Source of the DNA: Rhodanobacter sp. C06
GTDB lineage: Bacteria; Pseudomonadota; Gammaproteobacteria; Xanthomonadales; Rhodanobacteraceae
Reading direction: 5' to 3'
DNA: 64,000 bases
Assembly: GCF_002001105.1 (NCBI RefSeq)
Contig: NZ_MUNP01000036.1
Coordinates: forward strand, 62,001 to 126,000
Part shown: positions 17,501-21,579 of the stretch, in pieces
Layout: every line of letters begins with the position of its first letter
Position numbering within the stretch: position 1 is the first letter of the stretch
Position numbers and translations under genes: made by a program
Notes under the pieces: generated by a model
The model's input: the letters and a program-made list of their open reading frames with translations, nothing else
Told to the model about the DNA's origin: nothing
The model's database searches: none

Positions 17501-18241
17501 TCAGGGCACCGGAACTGGACCTCGCCCCTGCGGCGCCGGCGCCCGCGCCAGCGCCCACGCGTCGACCCGCGCCACGCCAGCACGCTTCAGCACGCGGGCG
17601 CATTCGGCGAGGGTGGCGCCAGTGGTCATCACGTCGTCGAGGATCGCCACGTGCGCTGGCAATGCAATGCCGGCACGTACGGTGAAGGCGCCACGCACGT
17701 TGCGGCGACGGGCCACGGCGTCGAGTTCGGTCTGCGCTTCGGTGCCGCGCATGCGTTGCAGCACATCGTGGCGCAGCGGCAGGCCGAAGTGGCGCGTCAG
17801 CGGCTTCGCCAGCTCCATTGCCTGGTTGTAGCCGCGCTGGCGCAGGCGTGCCCTGTGCAACGGCACCGGCAGCAGCAGTTCGGGCTTCGGCAACGACATC
17901 GGCTCGCGCTGCCACAGCGTCGCCAGCGCGCGCCCAGCGGCGAGGTCGCGGCCGAACTTGAAGCGCGACTCCAGCCGGTCCAGCGGCCAGCCGTAGCGGA
18001 ACGGCGCCCACGCCGCATCCCAGGGCGGCGCATGGCGCTGGCACTCGCCGCACTGCGCGGCGGGCACGGCCAGCGGCAGGGCGCAGCGCGCGCAGCAGCT
18101 GCGGTTGCGCGGCAGTTCGGCGGCGCAGGCCGCGCACAAGTCCACGTCATCCGCACCCGGCGCGCCGCACAGCAGGCAGCGCAGTGGCAGCAACCAGCGC
18201 GACAGCACATGCCAGGGTTGCAGCAGGCTTGCCTTGTCCAT
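17501..18241 (-). CDS. comF: ComF family phosphoribosyltransferase-like protein
   Basis: 246 residues. An N-terminal double zinc-finger-like part has CLLCGAPGADDVDLCAAC then CCARCALPL and CGECQ. The C-terminal half is a type I phosphoribosyltransferase fold, with the PRPP loop VAILDDVMTTGATLAEC (about 203-219). GGAGG five to seven bases before ATG 18241 supports that start over 18265. In competent bacteria ComF/GntX aids DNA uptake or processing and is often found near bio genes in gammaproteobacteria, as here. It is divergent from nirK with 151 bp between the two starts. Confidence 0.9.
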   Translation of the reverse strand: MDKASLLQPWHVLSRWLLPLRCLLCGAPGADDVDLCAACAAELPRNRSCCARCALPLAVPAAQCGECQRHAPPWDAAWAPFRYGWPLDRLESRFKFGRDLAAGRALATLWQREPMSLPKPELLLPVPLHRARLRQRGYNQAMELAKPLTRHFGLPLRHDVLQRMRGTEAQTELDAVARRRNVRGAFTVRAGIALPAHVAILDDVMTTGATLAECARVLKRAGVARVDAWALARAPAPQGRGPVPVP

Positions 18242-18280: not shown

Positions 18281-18294
18281 TTGACGCACGTCAC
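18281..18294 (+). promoter_or_regulatory. FNR/DNR-type binding site in front of nirK
   Basis: TTGACGCACGTCAC reads as TTGAC-N4-GTCAC, one base from the perfect CRP/FNR-family palindrome TTGAC-N4-GTCAA used by FNR, DNR and NnrR regulators. A -10-like TACACT is at 18316-18321. This puts the site centre at about -41, the class II activator position. The site is seen directly; the regulator is inferred. Confidence 0.6.
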
Positions 18295-18392
18295 TGCGCA
18301 TCGACGGCATGGACGTACACTCTGCCCGTCGGTGGCAGTCGCGTCGATGCCGCACTCGTCGGCAACCGCTCATCCGTTCCAGGAGATTTCGC

Positions 18393-20375
18393 ATGACCGT
18401 GCACGACGACGACCACCCCGCCCCTTCGAACTGGCCGGCCCTGACCGGCACCGCGCTGCGCGTGGCCTTTGGCATCATCTGGGTGGTCAGCGCCGCGCTG
18501 ACCTTCTCGCCGGACTTCGCCAGCCACTACGTGGGTTACCTGCACAACGCCGCCACCGGGCAGCCAGCATGGTCGGCCTGGTGGTTCCAGCTGTGGATCG
18601 GCCTGGTCACGCCGCACGCGGGCTTGTTCGTGTGGGCCACGCGCATCGCCGAATCGCTGCTGGCGCTGGCGCTGCTGCTGGGCTTCGCGCGCAAGATCAC
18701 TTACATCGTCGGCCTGCTGTTCAGCCTGCTGATCTGGAGTACGGCCGAGGGTTTCGGCGGGCCATATTCGGTGGGTGCGAACAACATCGGCGCGGCGCTC
18801 AGCTACGTGCTGATCTTCGCGGCGCTGATCGTCATCAACCAGCGCTCCGGCCCCAGCCCGTACAGCCTGGACTACCTGATCGAGTCGAAGTGGCCGGGCT
18901 GGCGCAGGTTCTCCGCGTGGAACACCGCGATCCGGCCGACCGAGGTGAAGCACCTGTCGTGGCGCGTGCAGGGCCCGGCGTTGGCCGGCGTGCTGGTGCT
19001 GGTGGCGTTGCTGCTGGCCGGCCTGCACAGCGCGCTGCACGTGCAGTCGCCCTCGCCGACGGCCGCCGCCGCCGCGGTGACGCCGCTGTCGCTGGCTTCC
19101 AGCCAGCCGATCGACAAGGCGCGCGATGCACGCCTGCCGCCGCTCACGCCGGGCGACAGCGTGGAAGTGGACATAGCCGTCAGCGACCAGACCGTGGAGA
19201 TCGCCAGCGGCGTGCAATACCAGGCCTGGACCTTCGGCAAGAGCGTGCCGGGCCCGGTCATCCACGTGCGCCAGGGGCAGACGGTGAACGTGACGCTCAC
19301 CAACCACGGCAGCATGCAGCACTCGATCGACTTCCATGCCGCGATCACGCCGCCCAGCCTGCATTACGTGGACATCATGCCGGGCGAGTCGATCAAGTTC
19401 TCGTTCGTGGCGAAGGTGCCCGGTGCGTTCCTGTACCACTGCGGCACGCCGCCGGTGCTGCTGCACATCGCCAACGGCATGTACGGCGCGATCATCGTCG
19501 ATCCGGCCACGGCGCTGCCGTCCGCCGCCGAGAGCTACGTGCTGGTGCAGGGCGAGTGGTACACCCAGCAGGTGGCCGGCCAGCTGATGGCCGGCGACTA
19601 CGGGAAGATGCAGGCGATGCGCCCCGACGAGGTGGTGTTCAACGGCGCCGCGTTCCAGTACCGCGACCATCCGCTCACCGCCAAGCCGGGCGATCTGGTG
19701 CGCCTCTACGTGGTCAACGCCGGCCCCAGCCTGTGGAGCGCGTTCCACGTGATCGGCGCGATCTTCGACAAGGTGTATCCGGGCGGCAACCCGGCGCAGG
19801 CGATCGACGGCGTGTCCACCTACAGCGTGGGGCCTGGCGAGGGCGCGGTGTTCGACCTGAAACTGGACGAGCCGGGCAAGTACCCGTTCGTGGACCACGC
19901 GATGGCGCACGCCGTGCTGGGCGCGATAGGCGTGCTCGAGATCACCGCGGCGGCCGGCGCGCCCGCCGCCGCCCCGCCGATCAGCAAGGCACCCGCCACT
20001 GCGGCACCCGCACCGCCACCGGCCGCCCCGGCCGGCCCGTACAAGTTCGACGCCGCACGCGGCGCTTCGCTCTATGCCACCAATTGCGCGGCCTGCCACC
20101 AGGCCACCGGCATGGGCCTGCCCGGCGCCTTCCCGCCGCTCAAGGACAACCCCGCGGTGCTCAACGACGACCCCGCCAAGCAGATCGCCACGATCCTCAA
20201 CGGCCTGCACGGCGAGCCCATCAACGGCACCAGCTACCCCAGCGCGATGCCGCCGTTCGCCGCCACGTTGAACGATGCCGACATCGCCGACATCGCAAAC
20301 CACGAGCGCACGTCGTGGGGCAACCAGGCCAGGACCATCAGCGCCGACCAGGTGAAGGCGGCGCGTGGCAAGTAG
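18393..20375 (+). CDS. nirK: Copper nitrite reductase fused to DoxX-like membrane domain and cytochrome c
   Basis: 660 residues; a plain NirK is about 340-390. Residues about 21-150 hold four membrane helices resembling DoxX/DoxD proteins, and a fifth helix is at 196-214. Residues about 250-518 form the two-cupredoxin NirK core of the AniA-like class. Type-1 copper ligands are His310, Cys350, His358 and Met363. Type-2 copper ligands are His315, His349 and His502. Catalytic Asp313 and His452 ([10 protein letters not shown]) are present. After an Ala/Pro linker, a class I cytochrome c has CAACH (565-569) and a likely axial Met619. AGGAG at 18381-18385 sets the start. It would reduce nitrite to NO at the membrane, with electrons passing through its own haem domain. 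The DoxX-like domain might receive electrons from quinol, but that is inference. Confidence 0.92.
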
Positions 20376-20535: not shown

Positions 20536-21579
20536 ATGCCCGAAGCCGTCATCCGCCACGACTGGACGCGCGAGGAAGTCGCCGCGCTGTTCGCGCTGCC
20601 GTTCAACGAACTGCTGCACCGCGCCCACACCGTGCACCGCGCGCACCACGACCCGAACGCGGTGCAGGTGTCGACGCTGCTGTCGATCAAGACCGGCGGC
20701 TGCCCCGAGGACTGCGCCTACTGCCCGCAGGCGGCGCGCTACGACACCGGCGTGGCGGCGCAGAAGCTGATGGAAGTCGACGACGTGCTGGCCCGCGCGA
20801 AGGCCGCCAAGGCCGCCGGCGCCAGCCGCTTCTGCATGGGCGCGGCGTGGCGCGGGCCGAAGGACCGCGACATCCCCAAGGTCGCCGAGATCGTGCGCGC
20901 CGTGAAGGATCTCGGCCTGGAAACCTGCGCCACCCTGGGCCTGCTCGGCGAGGGCCATGCGCAGCAGCTCAAGGACGCCGGCCTCGACTACTACAACCAC
21001 AACATCGACACCGCGCCGGAGTTCTACGGCGAGATCATCCACACCCGCGAATACCAGGACCGCCTGCAGACGCTGGAACAGGTGCGCGACGCGGGCCTCA
21101 AGACCTGCTGCGGCGGCATCGTCGGCATGGGCGAGACGCGTGCGCAGCGCGCCGGCCTGCTGCAGGCGCTGGCCAACCTGCCCGAGCACCCGCACTCGGT
21201 GCCGATCAACCAGTTGGTGCCGGTGCCGGGCACGCCGCTGGGCGATGCCGAGCCGCTCGACCCGTTCGAATTCGTGCGCAGCATCGCGGTGGCGCGCATC
21301 CTGATGCCGCTGTCCATCGTGCGCCTCTCGGCCGGCCGCCAGCAGATGGACGACGCGGTGCAGGCGTTGTGCTTCCACGCCGGCGCCGGCTCGATCTTCT
21401 ACGGCGAGAAACTGCTCACCACCGGCAACCCCGACACCGAGCACGACCGCGCGCTGTTCCGCCGGCTCGACCTGCACGCCATGGAAGTGGTGGAGGAAGC
21501 GGGCACGGTGCACGCCGACATCATGGAGAGCGCTGACGCGGGTTGCGGGCATGGGTGCGGGTGCACTGCGGCGGCCTAG
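20536..21579 (+). CDS. bioB: Biotin synthase
   Basis: 347 residues. This radical-SAM enzyme inserts sulfur into dethiobiotin. The CxxxCxxC cluster site is in [12 protein letters not shown] (about residues 54-65). Auxiliary [2Fe-2S] ligands are expected at the later Cys in FCMGAA, ETCATLG and GLKTCCGGI, and the conserved Arg in IVRLSAGR is present. ATG 20536 has GGAG at 20525-20528. The protein ends in an unusual GCGHGCGC tail that typical BioB proteins lack. It starts the bioB-bioF-trhO-bioH-bioC run; bioA and bioD are not in the window. Confidence 0.97.

Follow-up and report, generated by a model that had tools for sequence, protein, structure and literature searches.

Copper-containing nitrite reductases (CuNiRs) of the NirK type are generally viewed as soluble or lipid-anchored enzymes of the periplasm, with cytochrome c or cupredoxins as their electron donors. 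The three-domain CuNiRs, represented in the PDB by 6qpv and 3ziy (RpNiR) and by 2zoo (PhNiR), carry a cytochrome c behind the CuNiR core in the same chain and obtain electrons from the bc1 complex via soluble cytochromes, cupredoxins or the fused haem. A membrane domain placed N-terminally to NirK is described for Propionibacterium acnes, whose enzyme combines a cupredoxin with a transmembrane domain of about 400 aa (Decleyre et al. 2016, PMC4770552), and NirS fusions are reported from Chloroflexi (PMC8756737). In a different context, thiosulfate:quinone oxidoreductase (TQO, DoxDA) is described as linking a reaction in the periplasm to quinone through a DoxX-like membrane module (PMC6335251).

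The gene analysed here, from Rhodanobacter sp. C06, lies in a stretch of 64,000 nucleotides (contig NZ_MUNP01000036.1, positions 62,001 to 126,000; hereafter the window) and joins a DoxX-like module, a NirK core and a cytochrome c. It shares the order of core and cytochrome with the RpNiR/PhNiR type, which, however, is devoid of DoxX and matches the fusion protein only from residue 256 onwards. With the P. acnes enzyme, compared by description only, it shares a membrane domain in front of NirK, but that of P. acnes is larger, has no function assigned in the passage describing it and is accompanied by a cupredoxin (PMC4770552). The likeness to TQO concerns a DoxX-like membrane module, a periplasmic redox reaction and quinone, while the partner protein and the substrate are different and electrons would flow in the reverse direction (PMC6335251). 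Our search of the literature, with subscription papers mostly outside its scope, covered DoxX together with NirK as well as membrane- or quinol-linked CuNiRs and found no description of this fusion.

The anatomy of the fusion, comprising DoxX, a fifth transmembrane helix (TM5), the NirK core and cytochrome c (table 1), can be regarded as nearly certain. The protein scores above the Pfam cut-offs for Cu-oxidase, Cu-oxidase_2, Cu-oxidase_3, Cytochrom_C and Cytochrome_CBB3. A sequence-only reading of the region had proposed that all three parts reside on one polypeptide, and they are indeed encoded by a single ORF that recurs in other genomes. A separately translated doxX gene is ruled out, as the same uninterrupted ORF is present in four congeners and in 51 of 80 loci collected with the N-terminal module (three of the 51 being on the same contigs as three of the four congener ORFs). 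The suspicion that assembly or annotation fused two genes by mistake is refuted by this recurrence, in isolates and metagenome-assembled genomes (MAGs) alike and also in a record titled as a complete genome (HdN1, FP929140), and we consider it practically negligible. The architecture is real, recurrent and conserved, and constitutes an unusual variant of copper nitrite reductase, as the sequence-only reading had suspected.

Table 1. Features of the doxX-nirK-cyt c locus and its surroundings (positions in the window).
Feature	Position	Strand	Basis or remark
doxX-nirK-cyt c fusion gene	18393..20375	+	660 aa plus stop, continuous ORF
Ribosome-binding-like AGGAG	18381..18385	+	7 nt before ATG; read by eye
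DoxX-like four-helix module, residues 14-165	18432..18887	+	family profiles, AlphaFold2 helices
Motif residues 115-125, end of TM3, predicted periplasmic side	18735..18767	+	alignment, 38 rows
K/R-rich predicted cytoplasmic loop, residues 152-189	18846..18959	+	
TM5, residues 190-215, links DoxX with the periplasmic enzyme	18960..19037	+	predicted
Copper nitrite reductase core, residues 256-520	19158..19952	+	Pfam, NCBIfam, PDB phmmer
C-terminal cytochrome c, residues 549-660	20037..20372	+	Pfam; alignment
Haem motif CAACH of the C-terminal cytochrome c	20085-20099	+	likely axial ligand M619
comF-like gene, divergent upstream neighbour	17501..18241	-	named by eye
bioB-like gene, downstream	20536..21579	+	Radical_SAM + BATS
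FNR/Dnr-like box TTGACGCACGTCAC	18281..18294	+	one mismatch to TTGAYN4RTCAA

The N-terminal module reveals its identity at the level of the family rather than of the single sequence. The search of residues 1-233 of the window protein in Pfam and of its N-terminal domain in NCBIfam gave no match, and the DoxX profile PF07681, which does match three other places in the same genome, reaches only E 2.2 on residues 1-171 (9.4 bits, below the cut-off of 23.6). Among 38 N-terminal domains (the window, L021 and 36 of the 80 loci), PF07681 is matched by 18 (best E 2.4e-5), MauE by nine and DoxD by three (best E 0.037). A comparison by hhalign of the family with an alignment of nine DoxX proteins, drawn from 26 loci, gave 91.6%, with E 8.1e-7, for residues 20-168, covering the four-helix core and the G...S.D segment after TM4; the controls UbiA (13 rows), CcoN (six rows) and PgsA (a single sequence) stayed at or below 0.6%, with E 0.089 or worse, against either alignment. 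The DoxX fold proposed for the N-terminus thus holds for the family, although the window sequence fails on its own, and of the three kinds of profile suggested for a domain search only the Cu-oxidase and cytochrome c ones score above cut-off directly. Among solved structures, Foldseek with the N-terminal model found nothing better than E 0.98, and the sequence search found no relative of the module in any PDB chain, Geobacillus-type NirK included, at E up to 5.

The predicted topology agrees with the idea, likewise raised before, that the enzyme is tethered to the membrane, namely by four DoxX helices and TM5. AlphaFold2 places helices in the N-terminal part at residues 14-37, 40-54 (predicted periplasmic), 59-96, 100-119, 132-151 and 190-215 (mean pLDDT 79, but under 50 for residues 122-132); the model of the full-length protein is poor (pLDDT 64, pTM 0.44). 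In the window protein, lysine and arginine are missing from both loops predicted to be periplasmic (38-58 and 120-131), as opposed to two such residues in the predicted cytoplasmic loop 97-101 and six in 152-192, and the means over 28 aligned rows are 0.25 and 0.0 for the periplasmic loops against 1.93 and 5.46 for the cytoplasmic ones. The charges at the two ends do not help the prediction: the presumed cytoplasmic N-tail has no K/R and three acidic residues, and the stretch 216-255 following TM5 has three K/R. With the N-terminus inside and five membrane-spanning helices, the core and the haem tail would be periplasmic, as a CuNiR requires, and the invariant WSTxxGxGGPYxxG segment would consequently lie at the outer face of the membrane, on the side of the enzyme.

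The catalytic core appears fully equipped. The residues that family knowledge leads us to regard as ligands of the T1 copper (H310, C350, H358, M363) and the T2 copper (H315, H349, H502) and as the catalytic pair (D313, H452) are all present at the positions given by the sequence-only reading, and none of the nine varies among the 28 aligned proteins, which are the window's own and those from 27 of the 62 NirK-bearing loci. In searches of the PDB with phmmer, the whole protein retrieves three-domain CuNiRs first (E about 1e-75, residues 256-659). The core alone is closer to other NirKs than to the RpNiR/PhNiR type: its best match, with the ligands aligned, is 3wkq/3x1e (223 bits), Geobacillus NirK, with chains of 287-352 aa and no cytochrome part in the match, followed by 2dv6 (208 bits), 1kbv (202 bits; AniA), 2zoo (192 bits), 6qpt/6qpv (182-183 bits) and class-I NirKs (about 85 bits). 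The earlier designation of the core as "AniA-type" is therefore a loose label. The core matches the NCBIfam family Cu_nitrite_red (TIGR02376) over residues 256-519 with E 1e-58, yet its 199 bits fall under the cut-off of 296. This might suggest a multicopper oxidase-like protein with a different substrate rather than a nitrite reductase, but the invariance of the CuNiR ligands and of the catalytic Asp/His pair, the nitrite reductases at the top of the PDB matches and the genomic company described below make such a reading very improbable. Reduction of nitrite by the fusion protein is, judging from these features, very likely.

The same genome encodes a NorB as a single chain of 768 aa, for which NCBIfam named no family and whose best PDB match (E 1.6e-153) is the quinol-dependent nitric oxide reductase 3ayf, and a NosZ (1015 bits); the search found no narG and no NirS (cytochrome cd1). 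Other matches of the fusion protein in its own genome, with 19 of 24 candidates scored, comprise a cytochrome c, at residues 532-652, and an oxidase-like protein that matches weakly (E 2e-11). With neither NirS nor another NirK-like match, the fusion is the only recognised NO-forming nitrite reductase of a genome that possesses NorB and NosZ, and by gene content the organism would be a denitrifier acting from nitrite to N2. The NorB and NosZ genes are about 9 kb apart on one contig (C22; L206, L207). Across the genus, a NorB-like match at E <= 1e-60 occurs in all five genomes with the fusion (with only 36% identity in G014) and in three of the ten without it, three of these ten genomes being less than 90% complete. 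Three of the carriers (G005, G010, G014) also have a DoxX-less NirK-cyt c, and an extra nirK copy has been counted in Rhodanobacter FW510-R12 (PMC8809349).

Does the DoxX module do anything beyond holding the enzyme at the membrane? Eight residues at the end of TM3 (W115, S116, T117, G120, G122, G123, P124 and Y125) are invariant in all 38 N-terminal domains. Compared with the four congeners, the window protein is 88/94/82/74% identical in DoxX, 93/85/87/75% in the core, 91/84/78/68% in the cytochrome, 96/96/75/58% in TM5 and 44/60/36/40% in the loop part 166-190, which is the most variable stretch apart from the N-terminal tail; dN/dS against the congeners is 0.11-0.27 for DoxX and 0.22-0.40 for the core. 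The mean p-distances among 24 three-domain proteins are 0.278 for DoxX, 0.299 for NirK, 0.342 for cytochrome c and 0.459 for TM5, with the conservation of DoxX inflated by the choice of these proteins on N-terminal motifs, a bias from which the congeners, found with the whole protein, are freer. Co-variation does not set the module apart, as the distances of TM5 track those of NirK as well as the distances of DoxX do (Mantel r 0.674 and 0.645, respectively). DoxX is thus conserved like the catalytic core and unlike the anchor helix TM5, which suggests a working part, and on this sequence evidence we think it probable that the module is more than an anchor. The module may contain a site for a small molecule, with aromatic and small polar residues as its lining. 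Among the 28 aligned rows the module contains no invariant His, Met or Cys (H45 is present in 22 of the 28, H51 in 22 and H75 in 17), so that no haem or copper relay is indicated in the membrane part.

The lack of redox ligands in DoxX speaks for a rival explanation, in which the module serves solely as an anchor and assembly platform and electrons arrive from the bc1 complex via soluble c-type cytochromes, cupredoxins or the haem tail, much as in the other three-domain CuNiRs. The tail itself could be read in the same sense. The C-terminal cytochrome c, predicted already by the sequence-only reading, is confirmed by Pfam and by intact haem residues, with C565, C568, H569 and M619 identical in all 24 tail-bearing proteins among the 28, and the nearest of the few other cytochromes examined are CcoO-type haem domains (57 and 53% identity). 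CcoO-type proteins receive electrons from cytochrome c or the bc1 complex. Against the anchor explanation, the conservation of DoxX exceeds what an anchor needs while TM5 drifts far more, and DoxX is retained in nine two-domain homologues that lack the haem altogether. We therefore regard a purely anchoring role as somewhat unlikely.

The origin of the tail was addressed with a tree of cytochromes (50 rows, 113 columns, only five of them other cytochromes). The tails of 22 DoxX-less NirK-cyt c proteins stand apart from all DoxX-type tails (SH-aLRT 100) in this tree, where DoxX-NirK-cyt c proteins were thinned to 22 rows and L070 stands mislabelled NC. The CcoO-type C-terminal haem domains (L166, L167 and the FixO of L063) fall among the DoxX-type tails, and CcoO-type proteins could have been receivers of the haem domain. 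The comparison of the tail with the Ralstonia-type enzyme, made earlier, stands for the arrangement of domains; the sequence of the tail is separate from that of the DoxX-less NirK-cyt c tails (RpNiR and PhNiR are absent from the tree). Because the tails belong to another lineage, the DoxX-NirKs probably gained theirs separately, although a tree with five other cytochromes is no proof of it. Two cytochromes fused to NirS group with the 22 DoxX-less tails; these are extra N-terminal domains of two ORFs of about 730 aa (L169, L170), recognized as NirS-like by eye.

The taxonomic survey of the architecture showed it to be spread over several phyla. The full fusion is present in five of 15 genus genomes, the source genome included, and absent among the matches listed in 46 genomes outside the genus. 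A scan of named genomes with the N-terminal module gave 211 relatives, and the 80 kept comprise 51 loci with DoxX-NirK-cyt c, nine with DoxX-NirK, 15 with standalone DoxX and five cut by contig ends (two DoxX-NirK, three DoxX). According to record titles, which may be wrong in the case of MAGs, the three-domain carriers include Rhodanobacter, Frateuria, Thermomonas, Dokdonella, Castellaniella, Comamonas, HdN1, Beijerinckiaceae and Gemmatimonadetes; eight of the nine whole two-domain proteins come from Verrucomicrobiota records and one from an unassigned bacterium, and the standalone records are labelled Actinobacteria, Actinomycetota, Actinomycetes, Acidimicrobiaceae, Bacillota or bacterium. 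The fusion type as such thus extends over Pseudomonadota, Gemmatimonadota and Verrucomicrobiota, and its nine haem-less members indicate that DoxX pairs with NirK independently of the cytochrome. It is nevertheless a minority type: NirK was found at E <= 1e-30 in 34 of 398 genomes sampled evenly from the phylum, and among 30 of these matches drawn as loci (two of which, L007 and L018, had already been examined and lack the motif) only the window's own has the DoxX motif. An even sample of the class yielded matches to the N-terminal alignment in eight of 369 genomes at E <= 1e-5, namely two fusions (the source genome and the contig-cut G318) and six genomes with frames of 321-427 aa, five of which have two copies of the DoxX-like module. 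Proteins of about 330 aa from other Gammaproteobacteria (L112-L119, e.g. L113:952-1941, minus strand), with the two modules in tandem in five of six genomes, gave no match in Pfam or NCBIfam for the one checked.

The standalone relatives bear on another rival explanation, which by analogy with DoxX proteins of copper-peptide and thiol systems would assign the module to maturation or redox protection of the enzyme (copper loading, thiol redox). Weak matches to the NCBIfam family HvfX ("Cu-binding RiPP maturation protein") in eight of the 38 N-terminal members (best E 0.006) point in this direction, as do two of the 15 standalone loci, the ones with such neighbours scanned in Pfam, both from actinobacterial MAGs: in one, a redoxin (L096:4752-5633) lies 2.7 kb from the DoxX-like gene, and in the other an adjoining gene (L103:6619-6999) matches DsbD_TM below threshold (17.6 bits against 27.1). 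Yet the module has no invariant Cys, His or Met, and no neighbour gene beside the fusion is common to several lineages, so a role in maturation appears unlikely.

Both comF and bioB flank the fusion in 12 of 72 loci, corresponding to ten distinct genomes, nine titled Rhodanobacter plus G010, and the congener G009 lacks this context. A dedicated partner operon was looked for and rejected: apart from the fusion itself and overlapping frames, the most frequent family reaches no more than 11 of 61 loci, and such recurrence is almost entirely Rhodanobacter synteny, which is what a self-contained enzyme would predict. In one locus (L063:79-5037) the doxX-nirK gene is accompanied by a hemerythrin-like gene, a regulator of the CRP/FNR type and genes for a divergent CcoN (250 bits against a cut-off of 583) and for a FixO protein that carries a cytochrome c tail; in another, a bacterial globin gene (L084:5493-5915, plus strand) is located immediately 5' of a verrucomicrobial DoxX-NirK. 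The FNR/Dnr-like box upstream of the window gene is not significant by itself, with four matches of its class in the window and as many in eight of 100 shuffles, and the counterparts in the four congeners have two to four mismatches. Boxes with at most one mismatch are, however, found in nine of 60 upstream regions of fusion genes (ending at the match start, in some loci a few codons within the gene) versus one of 60 regions inside genes, and 59 permuted palindromes average 0.83 in the upstream regions with a maximum of five.

In a tree of NirK cores (105 rows), all 58 DoxX-fused proteins lie on one side of a single branch, with SH-aLRT 93, under the threshold of 95 for a star, and the nine two-domain proteins form a starred group. 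A single origin, i.e. one change, suffices for the DoxX-fused proteins. The tree omits 17 loci as repeats, and with them the DoxX-NirKs of G005, G009, G010 and G014, as well as matches under 200 model positions (the contig-cut L045 and L069), and L070 was relabelled in it by hand from NC to DNC. The closest cores to that of the window, at up to 90% identity, come from two MAGs with the label Paraburkholderia, and Gemmatimonadota are interspersed with Proteobacteria, a mixture suggestive of either transfer or misbinned contigs. The divergence of the fusion had also been put forward as the reason why standard nirK primers fail in this clade, and this did not withstand comparison: the conventional primers have five mismatches (F1aCu) and five mismatches (R3Cu) to the fusion gene, and 4-5 and 6-7, respectively, to three NirK genes without DoxX from this genus. 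Given these comparable values, and since the conventional primers are described as amplifying nirK Cluster I only (PMC7104279), the failure is not due to the fusion. For most forest soils the same source reports that Rhodanobacter-like nirK dominates Cluster II, to which Chthoniobacter-like sequences belong as well (PMC7104279). As the fusion occurs in records of Rhodanobacter and also of Chthoniobacterales, the Cluster II amplicons from forest soils may include the DoxX type.

Taken together, these data lead us to propose, as a reading we place close to an even chance, that the protein is a membrane-bound NO-forming CuNiR in which DoxX is a working part, most likely binding quinol. The chain would start in the cytoplasm and be threaded through the membrane by the four DoxX helices and TM5, exposing the core, presumably a trimer as in its relatives, and the haem tail on the periplasmic face. 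The DoxX module would bind quinol at that face, in the region of the invariant residues 115-125, and pass electrons to the T1 copper, either directly or via the fused cytochrome c; the T2 copper would then use them to reduce nitrite, with NO as the product expected from the families. Such electron transfer would run in reverse of the sense of DoxD in TQO. Quinol is the natural candidate for the DoxX site in view of the TQO precedent (PMC6335251), although its role as the direct donor is a conjecture by analogy that we rate somewhat below even. A published model of Rhodanobacter R12 counts against a quinol-fed DoxX-NirK, but it does so as an assumption, its NirK (of the DoxX type or other) being taken as azurin-fed (PMC12146267).

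The most specific version of the proposal, a quinol:nitrite oxidoreductase ("qNIR") in which a cofactor-free DoxX takes electrons from quinol and nitrite is converted to NO in a single chain, is put forward only tentatively. Should it be true, the relation of qNIR to NirK would mirror that of qNOR to cNOR, and together with a quinol-fed NorB it would allow a cell to proceed from nitrite to N2O independently of bc1. Nitrite reduction fed by quinol would be uncoupled from bc1 and its energy yield would be lower. The budgeting of electrons in denitrification would change with a NirK clade whose members have a conserved polytopic module, and the fusion of DoxX to an easily assayed enzyme makes the function of such modules testable.
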